A DNA stretch of 24,489 bases, taken from positions 1-24,489 of IMG/VR virus record IMGVR_UViG_3300036719_002220, one strand, 5' to 3'. Shown here piece after piece: positions 1 through 6,591 of this stretch; positions within the stretch are counted from its first letter, which is position 1; every line of letters starts with the position of its first letter. The position numbers were made by a program, and so were the translations under genes. The stretch is from a virus. Below the pieces are notes generated by a model. It was not told the DNA's origin. It did no database searches and was given only the letters and a program-made list of their open reading frames with translations.

Positions 1-81
1 CTCAGCAAAGCACAGGGAAGAACTGGGAACACCCTTGCCGCAAGCTGGTTCCGTTAAGACACGGTTTCCTTGTCAAGATGA
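1..81. other. Non-coding left edge with a weak nested hairpin
   Basis: No gene with a credible start can be placed here; this is the 3' flank of the DUF669 gene. A nested inverted repeat is visible: GGAAC (26-30) pairs with GTTCC (48-52), enclosing CTTG (34-37) and CAAG (41-44). On the minus strand it lies about 30 bases after the stop codon and is followed by a pyrimidine-rich run, so it could be a weak terminator. It could equally be a leader for the next gene outside the window. Confidence 0.25.
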
Positions 82-546
82 CTACTTGTTAGTAGCCCAA
101 GCCGTCACCTTTTTAGCAGCCGCAGGTGCAGCGGCCTTAGTCGCCTCTCCAACCGGCTTAAAATCGACGATCTTGTTACGCGGCTTTTCAACGTCCTTCT
201 TATCAACGTCCAGCTTAATCGCCATCGGCTTGTTATAAAACTCCGCGCTCTTCTGAAAAGCAGCAACGTTCACAGCCTCAGCCAGCTTACGAAGCTCGGC
301 ATGGGCGATGCTCGTGGCCTGCTCGCTCTTGTTCCACAGGTTCATGTTGTGGAAAACAATGCGCCCCTTGTGCTCGCCGTCCACAATTTGAAACTTGAGG
401 CTCATGTAAGCACCGTCGCCAGCTTTGGTTTGCTTCTTTTCAGAATCAACAATAATGGCGACGTACATGCCGGGCGGCAAAACGGAATACTCCGGCGATT
501 CAGGCAGTTTGGCGGTTTCGTAGGTGGTTCCAAAATCAACAGACAT
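82..546 (-). CDS. DUF669-family single-strand-binding-type protein
   Basis: A 154-residue protein that resembles the phage DUF669 family: an early stretch ending LPPGMY, a beta-rich core containing LKFQIVDGEHKGR and HNMNLW, then an Ala/Lys-rich low-complexity tail. DUF669 proteins are commonly encoded next to Sak4-type ATPases and are thought to act as the phage single-stranded DNA binding protein in recombination or replication. The basic Ala/Lys tail would suit nucleic acid or partner binding, but it lacks the acidic tip of classical SSB. I chose the ATG at 546 because AAGGAG lies 8 bases upstream, inside the end of the preceding recombinase gene (gap of 5 bases). A longer reading to 600 has no support. 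Family assignment is from memory of the pattern; biochemical function is inferred. Confidence 0.75.
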   Translation of the reverse strand: MSVDFGTTYETAKLPESPEYSVLPPGMYVAIIVDSEKKQTKAGDGAYMSLKFQIVDGEHKGRIVFHNMNLWNKSEQATSIAHAELRKLAEAVNVAAFQKSAEFYNKPMAIKLDVDKKDVEKPRNKIVDFKPVGEATKAAAPAAAKKVTAWATNK

Positions 547-551
547 GTTTC

Positions 552-1304
552 TTACTCCTTGTTTTGGGCAGTCACGAACGCCTCGTAAAAGGCATCCCAT
601 GACAGTTCAAGCGGGCCATCAATACCATAACGGTTTCCGGCCACGATTGACGGCGAACCGCTGGTGAACAACACACGTTCACCTCCCACGGCCTTGGTCA
701 ATTTCTTATTGCCAGCGTCCTCGCTCTTTGTGAACACGCGAGGGCCAGCGTAAAACAGGCAATCCGTCCATTGTTCCAAAAGCTGGGCGCACTTTTCGTT
801 AAGCGTCGGGCAGAAGCGCGAGTAACTTTGCGTCGTCGGATCATCAAACTGGCGCTGCATAGCATGGCCGACCAGAATGACAATCATGTTCCGCTCGTTG
901 CGAATCATGTCCAGCTTGCCCAGAAACTCGCTGAACAGGTTTGCCGCTTCGGCATAGCCCTTGCCATAACCAATGTCGGCCACGGTTTTCTTGTGCTCCT
1001 TGCGGGCCACATAGTTTTGAATGATGCGCTCCAATGCGGTGGCGCTATCCAGAACCAGCGTCTCAAAGTTGTGCGGCTGTTGATAAACCGCCATCAAAGC
1101 CTCGTCAATCTGCTCAAGAGTTTGCAGTTGCTCACCCGGAACGCGAGCGACCTTGACGTTTTCCGAACCATTCTCCAAATCAAGGAAGATGGGATTCGGA
1201 GCCTGCGAGGCAAACGTGGATTTACCAATCTTTGGCTGGCCGTAAATGGCAATCCGGGGTGGGCGCGCTACAAGCGCGGGTTTAAGTTCGGTAAGGTTAA
1301 TCAT
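552..1304 (-). CDS. Sak4-like RecA-fold ATPase (phage recombinase)
   Basis: A 250-residue P-loop ATPase. Walker A is GQPKIGKST at residues 22-30 and Walker B is LVLDS at 83-87; the next hydrophobic strand (MIVILVGHA) ends in a polar sensor-like GH. The short RecA-core layout matches the AAA_24 / Sak4 group of phage single-strand annealing recombinases, which promote strand annealing with their cognate SSB. The DUF669 gene directly downstream fits that pairing. The start at 1304 has AAGGTGG 6 bases upstream and overlaps the end of the preceding gene by 8 bases, so the two are probably translationally coupled. Alternative: a RadA/DnaB-like ATPase, but the length and neighbour favour Sak4. Acts in the cytoplasm on phage DNA. 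Confidence 0.8.
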   Translation of the reverse strand: MINLTELKPALVARPPRIAIYGQPKIGKSTFASQAPNPIFLDLENGSENVKVARVPGEQLQTLEQIDEALMAVYQQPHNFETLVLDSATALERIIQNYVARKEHKKTVADIGYGKGYAEAANLFSEFLGKLDMIRNERNMIVILVGHAMQRQFDDPTTQSYSRFCPTLNEKCAQLLEQWTDCLFYAGPRVFTKSEDAGNKKLTKAVGGERVLFTSGSPSIVAGNRYGIDGPLELSWDAFYEAFVTAQNKE

Positions 1305-1665
1305 TGCTTTCCACCTTGAAAGTAGGCTTAGACGCCTTAATGGTCAGAGCCTGGTTAATCTTCGCCAGTTGGTCGGCGGGCATGGTTTCCATCAGTTTGT
1401 TGTCCGGCTTCCACTCAGCGCGGAAGGGCCAGACGTCAACCTCACCAGAGGCGCGAAGCTGAGACAGCATTTCCTGGTCGTATTTCTTATCCAGCTTTGT
1501 TACAATGGTAAGTTGGTCGTCGATATGGTTGGTACCGGTTTCTCGGAGACGGTCACGCACAAGCTGAAAAATCTCCAACTCGACCTCAACGCGAGCCTCG
1601 TTAGCGGCATGTTCCGCCTGCTTGTGCTGAATCCAAAGGCGTTTCAGTTCTTCCAGTCGTTCCAT
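1297..1665 (-). CDS. Conserved-looking phage protein of unknown function
   Basis: A 122-residue protein that I do not recognise. Residues 1-45 are predicted to be one long charged helix rich in Glu, Arg and Ala, possibly a coiled coil, and the middle (about residues 50-85) has a beta-like stretch with VDVWPFRAEWKPDN. It is the first gene of the leftward recombination operon: a promoter is visible upstream at 1704-1731, the ATG at 1665 follows AAGGA by about 10 bases, and its end overlaps the start of the Sak4-like gene by 8 bases. By position it may assist the recombinase or be a small siphovirus-type accessory protein; there is no motif to decide. Confidence 0.7.
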   Translation of the reverse strand: MERLEELKRLWIQHKQAEHAANEARVEVELEIFQLVRDRLRETGTNHIDDQLTIVTKLDKKYDQEMLSQLRASGEVDVWPFRAEWKPDNKLMETMPADQLAKINQALTIKASKPTFKVESND

Positions 1666-1692
1666 TTTTTTGGTGTCCTTGTTTGTTTAACT

Positions 1693-1720
1693 TTGTAAGG
1701 AAGTGTATATGTGCTATAAA
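1693..1720 (+). promoter_or_regulatory. Probable promoter for the helix-turn-helix gene
   Basis: On the plus strand TTGTAA (1693-1698) and TATAAA (1715-1720) are separated by 16 bases, giving a start near 1727 and a short leader before the ATG at 1753. The -35 match is only moderate. Each -10 box lies in the spacer of the opposing promoter, so the two could not be occupied together. Confidence 0.4.
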
Positions 1721-1731
1721 GAAGGTGTCAA
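1704..1731 (-). promoter_or_regulatory. Sigma70-type promoter for the leftward recombination operon
   Basis: On the minus strand the -35 box is a perfect TTGACA (1731-1726) and the -10 box is TATACA (1709-1704), with a 16-base spacer. Transcription would start near 1697, about 30 bases before the first gene of the operon. It overlaps almost completely with the rightward promoter of the helix-turn-helix gene. Confidence 0.6.
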
Positions 1732-1752
1732 CAACTTTTGAAAGGAAAAATT

Positions 1753-1920
1753 ATGATCAAGGAAAAGCTGCTTAACATGACACAAGCATCAAAGTTTATC
1801 GGCATCAGCCGTGCGACGTTGTACTCCCTCATCAAGAAGGGCGCTATCCCGGAACCCAAAATTATTCTTGGTCGCAAGTACTACCACATCGACACTTTGA
1901 AAAAAGTTGCTATGATATAA
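1753..1920 (+). CDS. AlpA/excisionase-like helix-turn-helix regulator
   Basis: A 55-residue DNA-binding protein and the only rightward gene seen. Residues 9-35 (MTQASKFIGISRATLYSLIK and following) form a MerR/AlpA-type helix-turn-helix, and the following strand ILGRKYYHID fits the wing of the AlpA / HTH_17 / excisionase family. These proteins act as small transcription regulators or as recombination directionality factors. No integrase is in the window, so a regulatory role on the divergent promoters next to it is the better guess. The ATG at 1753 has AAAGGA 6-7 bases upstream; a TTG 15 bases earlier is less likely. Local composition is AT-rich compared with the flanking late genes, consistent with a separately acquired regulatory cassette. 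Confidence 0.8.
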   Translation: MIKEKLLNMTQASKFIGISRATLYSLIKKGAIPEPKIILGRKYYHIDTLKKVAMI

Positions 1921-2010
1921 GAGCGTGAGGGGTAGCGGCTGGTAACTGGCCGTAGGTGTCCCGTGTTTCACCTCCTTTCCCCGACCATGCCGCCAGCCGA
2001 AAGGCTGGCG
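1921..2010. terminator. Convergent intergenic region with a tetraloop hairpin terminator
   Basis: This gap separates the converging helix-turn-helix gene and the late operon. A perfect 8-bp stem, CGCCAGCC (1991-1998) and GGCTGGCG (2003-2010), closes a four-base loop and begins right after the late operon's stop codon. Neither strand has a good T-tract, so termination may be inefficient or factor-assisted. A weaker hairpin is at about 1936-1952 (CGGC/GCCG). The gap also holds an unexplained perfect Shine-Dalgarno/anti-Shine-Dalgarno sequence at 1968-1978. Confidence 0.55.
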
Positions 2011-2895
2011 TTACAGTTTGCCAGTCCAGCGACCGCTTTTATCCAGCTTCATTTGCACCAACTGGGGCACGCCCTGACGAATGACCGTGCAGCCCAAGGC
2101 GACGGGCTTCCCCGTGTGGTACGCAAACGCAGGCTTGCTCAGGTCAACTAAACAGCCACCGTACCCACCCCATACAAGGTGATGGCCCCACCGCCCTTGC
2201 AGTATCTCAAAGCGGCTGTGTTCGTGGCCCATCATCACGCAGACAGGCTCGCCACGGAATACGCTCTCGCTCACCGCCTCGTTAAACGCCTTCATGGCGC
2301 CGCCCTTGGCATGGGTCTTGTCGCCGTGCTTGAACACCACGTTGTCCACCTGGTGCGTCTCGCCAAACAGCCAGCCTTCGGGGGCCTTGAGAATATCCTT
2401 GTACGTCGGGCACAGTTGGGTCGGGCAGTTGTGGGCGATGAACCGCCGAATCATTCTGTCCATGTGGTTCGACGATGTGCAAAGCACCTCTGGGAAGATG
2501 GCAAACAGCTTGTTCGCCTCAGCCCGCAGCAGGTCTAGCTCGGTGTCGGCGTTCGGTGCGCTGGGGTGCAAGCCGTGAAAGTTCGCCATGTGAAGGTCGC
2601 CCTCGTCGCCGTTGCTCACCACCACGTCGGGCTTGCACCAGTCGCGCACGTCTTTCAGGAAGTGTAGCGCATCGGGATGTTGGAAGGGCATGTGAAGGTC
2701 GTTGAACACAAGGATGGTGCGGGGCGCGTCGCTCTGCCGCTTTTCACGCTCGCGCACGGTATCTCGGCGGTTGGCGCACTTCCTGCACGCGCTGTCGTGG
2801 CGGCCTCGGTCTGGGCGGAAACGGAAACGATCTATTGGAAGCCACTCATTGCACAGCCTGCAAACCTGACCGTCTACGCCCGTCGTCAACGCCAT
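2011..2895 (-). CDS. Metallophosphoesterase with N-terminal zinc ribbon
   Basis: A 294-residue two-domain protein. Residues 12-40 carry two Cys pairs (CxxC at 12/15 and 37/40), a small zinc ribbon of the type that often contacts nucleic acid. Residues 59-270 are a calcineurin-like phosphoesterase: metal ligands NDLH (D66, H68), NGDEGD (D97), SSNH (N143, H144), KHGD (H190) and GHEHSR (H224, H226). All core motifs are present, so it should be an active metal-dependent phosphatase or nuclease. It is the last gene of the late unit, with AGGGG about 10 bases before its ATG and a hairpin directly after its stop. The substrate (protein, nucleotide or DNA) cannot be read from the sequence; the zinc ribbon hints at DNA or RNA. 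Confidence 0.85.
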   Translation of the reverse strand: MALTTGVDGQVCRLCNEWLPIDRFRFRPDRGRHDSACRKCANRRDTVREREKRQSDAPRTILVFNDLHMPFQHPDALHFLKDVRDWCKPDVVVSNGDEGDLHMANFHGLHPSAPNADTELDLLRAEANKLFAIFPEVLCTSSNHMDRMIRRFIAHNCPTQLCPTYKDILKAPEGWLFGETHQVDNVVFKHGDKTHAKGGAMKAFNEAVSESVFRGEPVCVMMGHEHSRFEILQGRWGHHLVWGGYGGCLVDLSKPAFAYHTGKPVALGCTVIRQGVPQLVQMKLDKSGRWTGKL

Positions 2896-2918
2896 GGAGG
2901 TTTAGCCCCTCTTTTTGG

Positions 2919-3095
2919 TTATTGTATACACACGTCGTCAAACCAATCAATATCTTCTTCGTCGGCGGTCACGAGCACCTGACCGTCCAGCGTCCACAAA
3001 AAGAAAACGCCCTGTTCGTTGGCGTGCAACTGAACAGGGTCGTTGGGGTCGTAAATAAGGAACGACTTAAACGGTTTGTAGAATGGTGCCTTCAT
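2919..3095 (-). CDS. Small acidic protein, translationally coupled
   Basis: A 58-residue acidic protein of unknown function. It starts MKAPFYKPFKSFLIYDPNDP and ends in an acidic, aromatic tail containing TADEEDIDWFDD. The ATG overlaps the stop codon of the preceding 38-residue gene as ATGA, and GGAGG lies 11 bases upstream inside that gene. Codon-by-codon reading shows an unbroken frame with phage-like synonymous choice. The middle (VFFLWTLDGQVLVTADE) reads as a beta hairpin. It lies between the accessory structural genes and the phosphoesterase; no enzymatic motif is visible. Confidence 0.6.
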   Translation of the reverse strand: MKAPFYKPFKSFLIYDPNDPVQLHANEQGVFFLWTLDGQVLVTADEEDIDWFDDVCIQ

Positions 3096-3208
3096 CTACT
3101 TCTGCGCCTCCGTCTAAACACGATTAGATACAGGTTCGTCACCGCACCAGAAACAGCGCCCCACCATCCTCCAAAATAGTTACCGTTGTATTTACCAAAG
3201 TAGCTCAC
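3092..3208 (-). CDS. Micro-gene: aromatic YFG/W-motif peptide with polybasic end
   Basis: A 38-residue peptide beginning with GTG. Residues 2-17 are SYFGKYNGNYFGGWWG, an aromatic/Gly motif that is familiar at the ends of phage tail-region genes. A short hydrophobic segment (AVSGAVTNLYLIVF) follows, then RRRRRSR at the C terminus. The hydrophobic run is short for a membrane helix but could lie in a membrane with the basic end in the cytoplasm. Support for it being real: AAGGA lies 6 bases before the start, the GTG overlaps the previous stop as GTGA, and its own stop overlaps the next gene's start as ATGA. Function unknown; an accessory tail or membrane peptide is inferred. Confidence 0.6.
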   Translation of the reverse strand: MSYFGKYNGNYFGGWWGAVSGAVTNLYLIVFRRRRRSR

Positions 3209-3912
3209 GTTACATCCTTGGACGTGACCGTGCGGTTGCCACCGCTAATCGTGGCGACCAATCGGTTTTTGGTTCCGTCCTGCGATTTAAACGTGACCGT
3301 AGCGCCTTCCATGCCGGTGGCGTCGCCAGAGGTAACAGACAAGATCAGCTTCAAGATTTCCTCAGCCGTCATGCCGTCCTCGATAACGGTCGTCCACGGG
3401 TTGCCTGCGCTGCCTGCGTCGTTGAGCTTTTCGCCCATCGTGCCAGCCGCGTTGTAAGAAGTGGCCTGGGCTTGCCATACCTCCTGAGCAATGTCAAACG
3501 CAGAGGGTCTTGCGCCGGCGTCAAGGGTAGCCGACATTCTCCCAGCCGCCGTGATGTCGGCGTCTATGAAGCCCTCCCCCGCAAACGTGGCCGAACTGGT
3601 GTAGGCCATGTTCGCGCCCGGCGACATACTGCCCTCGCCCGTGAGCGTGGCTTCCATCTTGCCCGCCGCTTGGATGGACGACGTGAACGCGCTGCTACCC
3701 TGCAAGCGGGCCGAGATGCGGCCAGGCTCAAAGGCGAGCTTGATGGCGTTGAGGTTGGAGTAACCCTGCGGAAAGCTGACTTTGGGGCCGAACGCGATGC
3801 GGTTGGCGAGCGACCAGCCGTGCCGTGACTTGGCGTCCATGAAGCATGAAAGAGCGCCCCCGCTTAGGAACTTGAGGTACGCCCCGCTTGCGATGTTGTT
3901 AGCTATCAACAT
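3205..3912 (-). CDS. Putative tail-associated repeat protein
   Basis: A 235-residue protein. The middle (about 65-135) is a run of degenerate beta repeats of the form SAxLxGxG / AAGKMxAxLxGEG / AAGRMSATL. A segment GTMGEKLNDAGSAGNPW (about 155-171) and a C-terminal domain with MTAEEILKLILSV, FKSQDGTKNRLVATI and GNRTVT follow. These last parts recur in many phage tail-region proteins, where the module is thought to be structural. The ATG at 3912 is preferred over a TTG at 3930; it overlaps the end of the 55-residue gene by 14 bases. Its stop overlaps the next micro-gene as GTGA. Precise role (fibre, collar or decoration) cannot be read. Confidence 0.7.
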   Translation of the reverse strand: MLIANNIASGAYLKFLSGGALSCFMDAKSRHGWSLANRIAFGPKVSFPQGYSNLNAIKLAFEPGRISARLQGSSAFTSSIQAAGKMEATLTGEGSMSPGANMAYTSSATFAGEGFIDADITAAGRMSATLDAGARPSAFDIAQEVWQAQATSYNAAGTMGEKLNDAGSAGNPWTTVIEDGMTAEEILKLILSVTSGDATGMEGATVTFKSQDGTKNRLVATISGGNRTVTSKDVT

Positions 3913-4066
3913 TCCAGTTATCCGCAACAAACTGCGCCAAGTTGGCTAGTTCTTGCGCCTCCTCTTGCGAGCTGATGCGGATGTAGCGGCCCTCTGCCTT
4001 TTCAATGGCAATGACCGTCCCAGAGTTAAACGGAGGTTCAAATTCTGGAAGGTCATTAATAACCAT
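3899..4066 (-). CDS. Small phage protein of unknown function
   Basis: A 55-residue acidic protein beginning MVINDLPEFEPPFNSGTVIA, then a predicted strand and a C-terminal helix (SQEEAQELANLAQFVADNW). I do not recognise the family. The ATG at 4066 lies two bases after the stop of the 289-residue gene; a longer reading to 4153 would overlap that gene out of frame and has Arg/His/Gln-rich shadow composition, so it is rejected. The gene fits the tight minus-strand run of accessory structural genes and is probably co-translated with them. It could be a chaperone or minor component for its neighbours, but nothing shows this directly. Confidence 0.65.
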   Translation of the reverse strand: MVINDLPEFEPPFNSGTVIAIEKAEGRYIRISSQEEAQELANLAQFVADNWNVDS

Positions 4067-4068
4067 GA

Positions 4069-4938
4069 TCAACCCCACGCCGTGACGAGTCGGCCCGTGA
4101 TGATTTGGCTGGCCGTCAGCGCACCGCCGATGTTGACGAACAGGGCGAGACACGCATCGTCGTCGATGGGCGGCAAGGCGGGCAGTTGGCTCAAGAACTC
4201 GCGCTCGCCCGCCGTGTTCGCGGCGACCAACGGAATCTCGGCGATGGGTCGGTGCAGCACGAGGCTCACGGTGCCCGTCGTGCCCGACGCGATGGTGTAG
4301 CTGTTCAGTTCACGCACGCCCGCGTCGCCCGCCGCACGAATCATGTACGGGCTGGTAAGTTGGCCAGCCGTACCTCCACCGAGGAACGCACCGACGGGGA
4401 GCGAGTTGGCCGAAGAGGCCACGGTTCCCGTGCGCGAACCTGTGCCGCCGCTGTTGGTGTAAGTGACCGTAAGCGTAGGGGTAGCAGCACCCAACGCACC
4501 GTTGACGATGGCTGAGCACTCAACGCCGATGCCGTTGTTGTGGCGGGTCGGTTTGGCCGCGCCGTTGTTCAGCGTTGTCGGTGTGCCCGTGACGACGCAC
4601 GAGGGGTAAACGTAGAGGATGTCGGTAAGCAGGATGGTGCCCGGCACCGCCGTCGTGGCGGGGGTCAGGGCAAGCATCGACATCAGATGCTTGGTGTCCG
4701 GCGATACGGTGGCGTTCGTTTGCGGTAGCGCCCCGGTCGTGGCCGACGAGTATGCAACGCCCACGCCCGCCGTACCCGACAGCGACCCGGTGCCGCCCGT
4801 ACCCGTAGCGGTAAAGGCCTCGTGCCACCGGCCCGCTACCGAGGTCGCACCGGTTTGGATGGTGCGGATAAACGGGATGCTGTTGCGCTGGCCTGCGGCC
4901 ATGCTCTGAACAATATCGTCGATGCCAATGAAAGCCAT
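4069..4938 (-). CDS. Putative phage structural protein, Gly/Thr/Ala-rich
   Basis: A 289-residue protein starting MAFIGIDDIVQSMAAGQRNS, followed by IQTGATSVAGRWHEAFTATG. This opening is familiar from a group of phage proteins encoded near tail genes that are usually annotated only as hypothetical or structural. The body is rich in Gly, Thr, Ala and Ser with many predicted strands, and it has no enzymatic motif. The start has GGAG 9 bases upstream, inside the end of the preceding fibre-like gene (gap of 3 bases). Base composition is more GC-rich than in genes to the left. A virion component is likely; a decoration or tail role is inferred from context only. Confidence 0.65.
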   Translation of the reverse strand: MAFIGIDDIVQSMAAGQRNSIPFIRTIQTGATSVAGRWHEAFTATGTGGTGSLSGTAGVGVAYSSATTGALPQTNATVSPDTKHLMSMLALTPATTAVPGTILLTDILYVYPSCVVTGTPTTLNNGAAKPTRHNNGIGVECSAIVNGALGAATPTLTVTYTNSGGTGSRTGTVASSANSLPVGAFLGGGTAGQLTSPYMIRAAGDAGVRELNSYTIASGTTGTVSLVLHRPIAEIPLVAANTAGEREFLSQLPALPPIDDDACLALFVNIGGALTASQIITGRLVTAWG

Positions 4939-4941
4939 GTT

Positions 4942-5367
4942 TTACTGCTCCTGCACCACAAGCGTCCCGGCGTCGAACTCGGGGCGGATGTTGAGGTTGA
5001 TGACAAGCGACGAGTTCAGCGCAGCCGTAGCGATAACCGTCCCGGTGCTGCTGGCGTTTTCACCAAGGGCGACGTGCGTGATGGTTTGGGGGAGCGTGCC
5101 TCCTGTGGCGATGCCGAACTGGATGAGGGCCGCGTTGCTCGACGAACCGCTTGACGCAGCGGTGAACGCGCCGCTTGAGTTGCGCGTCAGAGCCACGCGA
5201 GCGTAGCCAGTGTAGTTCGCCTCGTTCGTAGTTTGGTTCCCGCCCAGCCCGACCGCGCCGGTGTGCAGGCTCAAATACAGGGTCGAAGCCCCGTCCCACG
5301 ACGGAGCGACGTTGCGAAGCATGTAGTTCAGTACATCATTCGCCGACTGGGTGGTTTTACTCGCCAT
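4942..5367 (-). CDS. Phage tail fibre-like protein (gp80-type)
   Basis: A 141-residue protein matching the small tail fibre-like family seen in many phages: an N-terminal helix (ANDVLNYMLRNV), then LYLSLHTGAVG, GNQTTNEANYTGYARVAL, a Ser/Ala-rich loop, and a C-terminal beta part with THVALGENASSTGTVI. The landmarks LHT.., the NYTGYARV box and the THVALGE strand are in the expected order, and the length is normal. It probably forms a beta-sandwich subunit on the virion surface or tail. The start is 3 bases after the stop of the coiled-coil gene with GGGGGA about 7 bases upstream. The family is usually called fibre protein, but the location in the particle is rarely proven. Confidence 0.75.
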   Translation of the reverse strand: MASKTTQSANDVLNYMLRNVAPSWDGASTLYLSLHTGAVGLGGNQTTNEANYTGYARVALTRNSSGAFTAASSGSSSNAALIQFGIATGGTLPQTITHVALGENASSTGTVIATAALNSSLVINLNIRPEFDAGTLVVQEQ

Positions 5368-5370
5368 GGG

Positions 5371-5832
5371 TTATTCCCCCAGCAGCTTCTTGATTTTTTC
5401 ACGGGCATCAGCCAGCTTGGCTTCCTCAGCTTGACGGTCGCGCTCAATCGACTTGACGATCTTTTCGGCGGCAACCTTAACGTCGGCGGCTTTTTCCTCG
5501 GCCTCCTTAACGGCCTTCTCGGCTTTCTCAAACAGGTCATCGGCCTCAGCCTTTTTGACCTTGGCAGCCGAAAGAATTTCCTTCGCTTGCTTGCCAGCTT
5601 CCTTCGCTTGCTTATCAGCTTCGGCGGTGATGGCGACCATCTGATCTTGCAGCTTGGCAATCTCGTCCTTAATCGCGTCGCGCTCAACGGTGAACTTGGC
5701 AATCTGGGCCTCAATATCTTCCAGCCAGTCGGCACGAGTGGCAATCGCCTCAATGGATTCTGCCGCTTCCATCAGGGGGCGCAGGAAACTAATAACCTTG
5801 GCAGCGTCTTTGTGCAACTTTGCAGCTTTCAT
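5371..5832 (-). CDS. Long coiled-coil protein
   Basis: A 153-residue protein that is almost entirely helical. From about residue 25 to 150 it has heptad-like repeats of Ala, Glu and Lys with KEAGKQAKE, KAEKAVKEAEEKA and similar blocks, so a long coiled coil is predicted. There is no signal peptide or membrane helix. I do not recognise a specific family; low-complexity helical composition makes similarity searches unreliable. The ATG at 5832 has GGAG 8 bases upstream and follows the preceding stop by one base. It lies between a small structural-type gene and the gp80-type fibre gene; a fibre shaft, scaffold or assembly chaperone role is possible. Confidence 0.7.
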   Translation of the reverse strand: MKAAKLHKDAAKVISFLRPLMEAAESIEAIATRADWLEDIEAQIAKFTVERDAIKDEIAKLQDQMVAITAEADKQAKEAGKQAKEILSAAKVKKAEADDLFEKAEKAVKEAEEKAADVKVAAEKIVKSIERDRQAEEAKLADAREKIKKLLGE

Positions 5833-5833
5833 G

Positions 5834-6184
5834 TTACTTTCTCCCCACAAGGATAATAGTCAGGCTTTGATTGATACCGCCGCCAGAAAACTCAGGCTTA
5901 ATGGCTTGAGTGTTTTCCAGGATTTGCTCAATCTTGGGGCCGGTAAACGACAGGACGTTTTGATGCGGGTCGTTCAACGCCTCGTAAGGGGCCACGCCAT
6001 TCTCGTTGGTGCCCTTCATCTGAACGGTCGCGCCGTCAAACACGCCAAAAACTTGCACACTTCGATCCGAATATTCTGCGAAGAACGTGGGGTCGCAAGT
6101 GTCGGCAGCCGTCACGTTTTCCCATTTGACGCGGACAACGCCGGTGCTCATCGACTCGACGCGGGTAGGATTAATAACAGCCAT
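5834..6184 (-). CDS. Small beta-rich phage protein, probably structural
   Basis: A 116-residue protein beginning MAVINPTRVES, followed by VKWENVT, EYSDRSVQVFGVFDGATVQMKGTNENG, then YEALNDPHQNVLSFT and a C-terminal strand. This pattern recurs in many phage genomes near head or tail genes, generally annotated as hypothetical; the predicted fold is a small beta sandwich. The ATG at 6184 has AAGGG 6 bases upstream and lies 2 bases past the holin gene. It is therefore probably co-expressed with the lysis and accessory structural genes. I would call it a minor virion or decoration protein by analogy; the sequence alone does not show the position in the particle. Confidence 0.65.
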   Translation of the reverse strand: MAVINPTRVESMSTGVVRVKWENVTAADTCDPTFFAEYSDRSVQVFGVFDGATVQMKGTNENGVAPYEALNDPHQNVLSFTGPKIEQILENTQAIKPEFSGGGINQSLTIILVGRK

Positions 6185-6186
6185 GG

Positions 6187-6591
6187 TCAGCCCTTCTTCT
6201 TTATAAATTGTTCCAGCGGGCGGAAGCCAAACCAGAAAGCAATGACCCCACCAATAATATACCAGTCGTACTCTTGAAGTTCAATGCCATTTGCGCGGGC
6301 ATAGACGTACCACGAGAACACGCCAAGGGTGGTCAGCGGACGCACCAGCCCACGGGCAATGTCAACCACGGGCAAGTTGTAGCTGGCCTTGTCGTGGTCG
6401 CGGGCGTTCTGGATCTTCTGCTCTTCCAGCTTCGCATGCTCAAGCAACACTTCCTTGGCACGGGTGTCGTTCAGCACAAAGTCGGCAAAATTGTCCAGCG
6501 TTTCGCGGACAAGACCGCCCTTTTCCTTTCCAGCAAAAAGGTCAATCAGCTTGGGAAGCGCAGCAGTAGCAAGTGCAATAAGCGGTGCCAT
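6187..6591 (-). CDS. Holin, 3TM gene-transfer-agent type
   Basis: A 134-residue membrane protein. It has an N-terminal hydrophobic/amphipathic helix (APLIALATAALPKLIDLFAG), a charged helical middle (residues 21-78), and two clear membrane segments at about 83-100 and 109-124, ending in a basic KKKG. This layout fits the holin family with three membrane segments (PF11351-like) found next to endolysins. It should form lesions in the inner membrane that release or activate the endolysin. The ATG at 6591 shares its A with the stop of the endolysin gene (TAATG) and has GGAG 6 bases upstream; a TTG start at 6603 is less likely. Confidence 0.8.
   Translation of the reverse strand: MAPLIALATAALPKLIDLFAGKEKGGLVRETLDNFADFVLNDTRAKEVLLEHAKLEEQKIQNARDHDKASYNLPVVDIARGLVRPLTTLGVFSWYVYARANGIELQEYDWYIIGGVIAFWFGFRPLEQFIKKKG

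Follow-up and report, generated by a model that had tools for sequence, protein, structure and literature searches.

In plasmid pLS20 the Pr/Pc pair, a strong operon promoter and a weaker regulator promoter, overlaps and diverges with interlocked -10 and -35 boxes, and the divergently encoded repressor RcoLS20 represses there (PMC4207663). Rco forms tetramers, its operators are mapped and DNA looping is involved. In phages 186 and P2, small excisionase-type helix-turn-helix (HTH) proteins, Apl and Cox, belong to the early control region, and Apl of phage 186 represses both early promoters (PMC7498355). The promoters of these phages converge face-to-face 40-60 bp apart, the Apl/Cox gene is the first of the early lytic operon, the sites are 10-11-bp direct repeats and an integrase is present (PMC7498355). 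A further arrangement is found in E. coli, where bidirectional promoters share a -10 element, opposite polymerase sites exclude one another and the mRNAs diverge from starts 10-23 bp apart (Warman/Grainger, PMC12825309). Five such promoters showed little RNA polymerase competition at basal activity, with competition seen only once one side was strongly activated (PMC12825309). At PsoxS/soxR, the MerR-type protein SoxR blocks its own promoter (PMC12825309).

The locus described here adds one case to the known class of overlapping divergent promoters with a divergently encoded regulator, and is ordinary in kind and tidy in form. It lies in a stretch of 24,489 nucleotides from a viral record (IMGVR_UViG_3300036719_002220; hereafter the window). 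By sequence, the two candidate promoters share core-element DNA, and one gene of the pair has a product that family and predicted fold mark as a DNA-binding regulator. This is a 55-codon gene at 1753-1920, preceded by the Shine-Dalgarno sequence AAAGGA, and it is the sole gene assigned to the plus strand; all other assigned genes in the 24.5-kb window are on the minus strand. Its position marks the late/early junction of a genome otherwise read one way. The late block consists of terminase, portal and other structural genes, then a metallophosphoesterase gene ending at 2011. The early block, also on the minus strand, begins with the gene for a 122-aa protein (1297-1665; phrog_2480, with DUF7173 slightly below cut-off), followed by those for a Sak4-like single-strand annealing protein (552-1304; phrog_124, AAA_24) and a DUF669/ssDNA-binding-like protein (82-546). 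These profile matches bear out the initial annotation, which had read the leftward operon as Sak4/DUF669 recombination genes. In the related contig L065 the early block continues with a Cas4-type exonuclease, a DNA helicase, a pyrophosphatase-like protein and a DNA methyltransferase, and the Cas4-type exonuclease and helicase also follow Sak4/DUF669 in L049. The 122-aa and 55-aa genes are separated by a gap of 87 bp (1666-1752; 30% GC).

Candidate promoters for both directions are found within this gap. The leftward promoter has a perfect-consensus -35 box, TTGACA (1731-1726), and a -10 box that can be placed in two registers, TATACA at 1709-1704 (16-bp spacer) or TACACT at 1707-1702 (18-bp spacer). 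The rightward promoter combines a weaker -35 box, TTGTAA (1693-1698; 4/6 consensus), with an extended -10 element, TGC-TATAAA (1712-1720; TG at 1712-1713, TATAAA at 1715-1720), over a 16-bp spacer. All four hexamers named by the initial annotation are thus found where it had placed them, although its leftward -10, TATACA, is outscored by the TACACT alternative, and the TG of the extended rightward -10 was absent from it. Both leftward -10 registers fall within the rightward spacer, and from left to right the boxes read rightward -35, leftward -10, rightward -10, leftward -35. With this order the transcripts diverge, so the earlier label “face-to-face” is misleading and “overlapping divergent” is the right name. 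Transcription is predicted to start at about 1727 rightward and at about 1697 or 1695 leftward, some 30 bp apart (30-32), each start lying in or beside the -35 box of the opposite promoter. The proposal that RNA polymerase could not bind both promoters at once follows from this geometry. In mutually excluding opposite polymerase sites with divergent mRNAs the pair is like the E. coli bidirectional promoters, but its -10 hexamers lie 5-7 bp apart rather than being shared, and its predicted starts are 30-32 bp apart rather than 10-23 bp (PMC12825309). The interlocking of boxes between what would be a strong operon promoter and a weaker regulator promoter is like that of pLS20 Pr/Pc (PMC4207663), as is the divergent position of the gene for a predicted DNA-binding regulator.

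The promoter-like sites were ranked with a sigma-70 weight matrix that approximates published E. coli frequencies; the host's sigma factor may differ, and the ranks rather than the absolute scores are usable. Across 24.5 kb and both strands, the leftward site ranks 5th and the rightward site 6th. As an interleaved pair, with each -10 inside the opposite spacer, their weaker member scores 11.8 against 7.3 for the next-best independent pair in the window. When the 87-bp spacer was dinucleotide-shuffled 2000 times, scores as high as those observed arose on both strands in 0.1% of cases, and 3 shuffles (0.15%) gave an interleaved pair whose members both scored 10.5 or above. Taken singly, the sites are only mildly unusual for such AT-rich DNA (P = 0.041 rightward and 0.017 leftward in spacer shuffles). 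Since so good an interleaved pair is rare among shuffled spacers, the pair is probably real and not a product of chance. We consider it very unlikely that the rightward boxes are fortuitous, with only the leftward promoter real and the small gene read from another start or by readthrough. Such a reading could draw on the 4/6 match of the -35 box, on a -10 box lacking the final T, for which reason one promoter scanner skipped the site, and on the AT-rich spacer, which yields an equally good plus-strand site in 4% of shuffles. Against it stand the extended -10 TG, the suitable distance to the Shine-Dalgarno sequence and ATG, and the rank of 6 in the window; moreover, no better promoter-like site lies upstream, and no upstream plus-strand gene is present from which readthrough could come.

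The locus is present in three further contigs (L064, L065 and L066), two of which are about 5-6% diverged around the spacer. The spacer itself (1666-1752) carries 0/87 substitutions in all three, and the leftward -35 box is unchanged in each. The only differences are indels in L064 and L066, of 2 nt in the leader of the 122-aa gene and of 1 nt between the small-gene Shine-Dalgarno sequence and ATG, both outside the promoter cores. By comparison, the flanking genes of L064 are 3-10% diverged from the window, with values of 7.1% for the small gene, 6.3% for the 122-aa gene and 9.7% for the DUF669 gene. As 10 of the 12 small-gene substitutions fall at third codon positions, the sequence comparison indicates that the 55-aa gene is under purifying selection. 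L064 and L066 share the number and codon positions of their early-gene changes, so few independent lineages are represented, and only two haplotypes exist besides that of the window. Loss of the boxes in relatives would have spoken against the initial annotation; they are kept in these near relatives. A spacer free of substitutions speaks for constraint, but the whole of the non-coding DNA is nearly invariant: over the 6.4 kb compared with L064 (1-6455), there is 1 substitution in about 390 non-coding nt, while coding DNA is about 6% different. As all non-coding stretches are equally conserved, the conservation of the spacer is not specific to the promoter boxes.

This excess of coding over non-coding divergence between window 1-6455 and L064 reverses the usual pattern. 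The longest substitution-free run against L064 in the 6.4 kb (220 nt, 3099-3318) spans the gap at 3096-3204 and the 3' end of the next gene, and the minus strand of that gap folds no better than shuffles. Separately, the full-length amino acid sequence of Sak4 (555-1304) is 100% identical among five contigs of different metagenomic origin, whereas the neighboring DUF669 protein is 90-95% identical.

The 55-aa protein matches the Pfam families HTH_17 (PF12728; 32 bits against a cut-off of 27) and AlpA (PF05930; 22.7 against 21), and its best PHROG match is “excisionase and transcriptional regulator.” An AlphaFold2 model (mean pLDDT 86, from a 7-row alignment) resembles MerR-type winged HTH domains, the excisionase RdfS, RacA, BldC and Pukovnik Xis in Foldseek searches, with a best E-value of 3.5e-3 (none below 1e-3) and a TM-score to RdfS of 0.78. 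Profile scores over cut-off and the predicted fold thus sustain the family proposed for the rightward product, an AlpA-like DNA-binding protein, and identify it as a MerR/excisionase-type winged HTH protein. Activation of the MerR type was considered for these promoters and dropped because the spacers, 16 bp rightward and 16 or 18 bp leftward, are too short to match the 19-20 bp of a MerR-activated promoter.

On balance we favor a reading in which these are ordinary overlapping divergent early promoters and the divergently encoded winged HTH protein most likely represses one or both of them, probably as an autoregulator. The gap would hold two divergent, physically overlapping promoters of the host sigma-70 type. 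Early transcription of the 122-aa gene, Sak4, DUF669 and the genes beyond would start at the leftward one, which has the perfect -35, and the 55-aa protein would be expressed from the rightward one, with its weak -35 and extended -10. This protein would then bind in or beside the gap and repress one promoter or both, the outcome being negative autoregulation or early shut-off by analogy with Apl (phage 186) and Rco (pLS20). Polymerase occlusion might contribute a modest degree of interference, exerted for the most part on the rightward promoter by the stronger leftward one; the perfect -35 suggests a strong leftward promoter that could suppress its opposite. Repression is consistent with the position of the 55-aa gene, which alone runs against a continuous early operon. 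The likeness to Apl and Cox is of a small excisionase-type HTH protein at an early control region that may repress early-operon promoters, but here the promoters diverge rather than converge, the regulator gene is on the opposite strand rather than first in the early operon, and direct repeats like those of 186 and P2 are not seen in the spacer, nor an integrase in the pieces of this phage group examined. The comparison with pLS20 is likewise limited to architecture, since the present case is a phage in whose spacer no operators were detected for the putative regulator.

Operator-like repeats in the spacer were compared with shuffles, and neither direct repeats at one or two helical turns nor inverted repeats exceeded chance (p = 0.16-1.0), including direct repeats at lags of 9-12 (p = 0.59) and triple hexamers at 10-11 bp (p = 0.40). 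This null result fits a rival account, in which the overlap is compaction only: two ordinary promoters occupy the 87-bp gap, with no regulatory link between them and a 55-aa protein whose targets lie elsewhere. Two separate promoters with their leaders do not fit into 87 bp, so the overlap needs no special purpose, and the little basal competition at the bidirectional promoters tested (PMC12825309) also agrees with such an account. We nevertheless regard it as a possible but unlikely explanation, as a lone small winged HTH gene beside an early promoter is the classic site of a local regulator, and the gap is free of substitutions in relatives.

The same forced overlap means that overlap alone does not show a switch. 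The mutually exclusive switch suggested by the initial annotation finds no support here, given the lack of an operator-like repeat in the spacer, the weak basal competition in E. coli (PMC12825309) and a gap that imposes overlap. A true bistable switch, in which the two promoters and the 55-aa protein would give two alternative stable expression states controlling the recombination genes, is improbable. Polymerase binding is mutually exclusive by geometry and the perfect leftward -35 could favor real interference, but bistability requires two opposing regulators or positive feedback, and there is one candidate regulator only. The 13 sequence pieces examined from this phage group, no complete genome among them, contain neither a tyrosine integrase (PF00589) nor a CI-type HTH_3 gene over cut-off, and the spacer lacks detectable operators.

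Downstream of the small gene, between it and the convergent phosphoesterase gene, is a conserved stretch (1921-2012) that folds strongly on the plus strand (-44.1 kcal/mol, z -3.25; minus strand z about -1). The predicted structure is a junction of hairpins plus a GC-rich hairpin with a GAAA loop, with no clear U tract. The stretch lies within a 165-nt run without substitutions relative to L064, has no Rfam match and is immediately preceded by a good promoter-like site at 1889-1916 (TCGACA-16-TATGAT, with TG). Possible readings are a small RNA, a structured 3' UTR and a terminator, perhaps a bidirectional one. Within it, 1968-1980 contains TCACCTCCTTTC, the 3' tail of 16S rRNA (anti-Shine-Dalgarno), which on the minus strand reads as an extended Shine-Dalgarno sequence, GAAAGGAGGTGA, with no suitably spaced start codon; perhaps this is a relic ribosome-binding site. 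The idea that 1921-2012 mimics the 16S rRNA 3' end was rejected: beyond a genuine 12-nt match, TCACCTCCTTTC, the resemblance is marginal (p = 0.04), and other contigs chosen by the same pattern score alike, mostly at ribosome-binding sites of opposite-strand genes. A more elaborate proposal, that a single MerR/Xis-fold protein of 55 aa uses the interlocked promoters as a minimal timer or switch through occlusion and autoregulation, without integrase or opposing repressor and possibly with a small structured RNA from 1921-2012, seems to us improbable.

Searches further afield returned no relative diverged enough to show independent upkeep of the architecture. Matches to the 55-aa protein, the 122-aa protein and the phosphoesterase are confined to the same near-identical contigs, and neither a DNA match in named phages nor a near host genome was found. 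Records of Sak4 relatives at about 23-33% identity mostly lack an HTH_17 match, and the HTH_17 genes that do occur near Sak4 share its strand. No Sak4 match turned up in the portal relatives at 34-50% (L058-L060, Methylophilales phage MEP301 and Pelagibacter phage Hodr), among which L059 has its HTH gene inside an operon running in the same direction as the neighboring genes. The divergent arrangement was not seen among these 23-50% relatives.

Taken as repressor-controlled overlapping divergent promoters, the locus is a compact control region of a familiar kind, for which switch behavior is no more than plausible. If both promoters are active, it would offer a very compact, testable case of two genes on one promoter footprint, with a 55-residue regulator, in an uncultured phage group, and would help to decide whether promoter overlap represents control or compaction.
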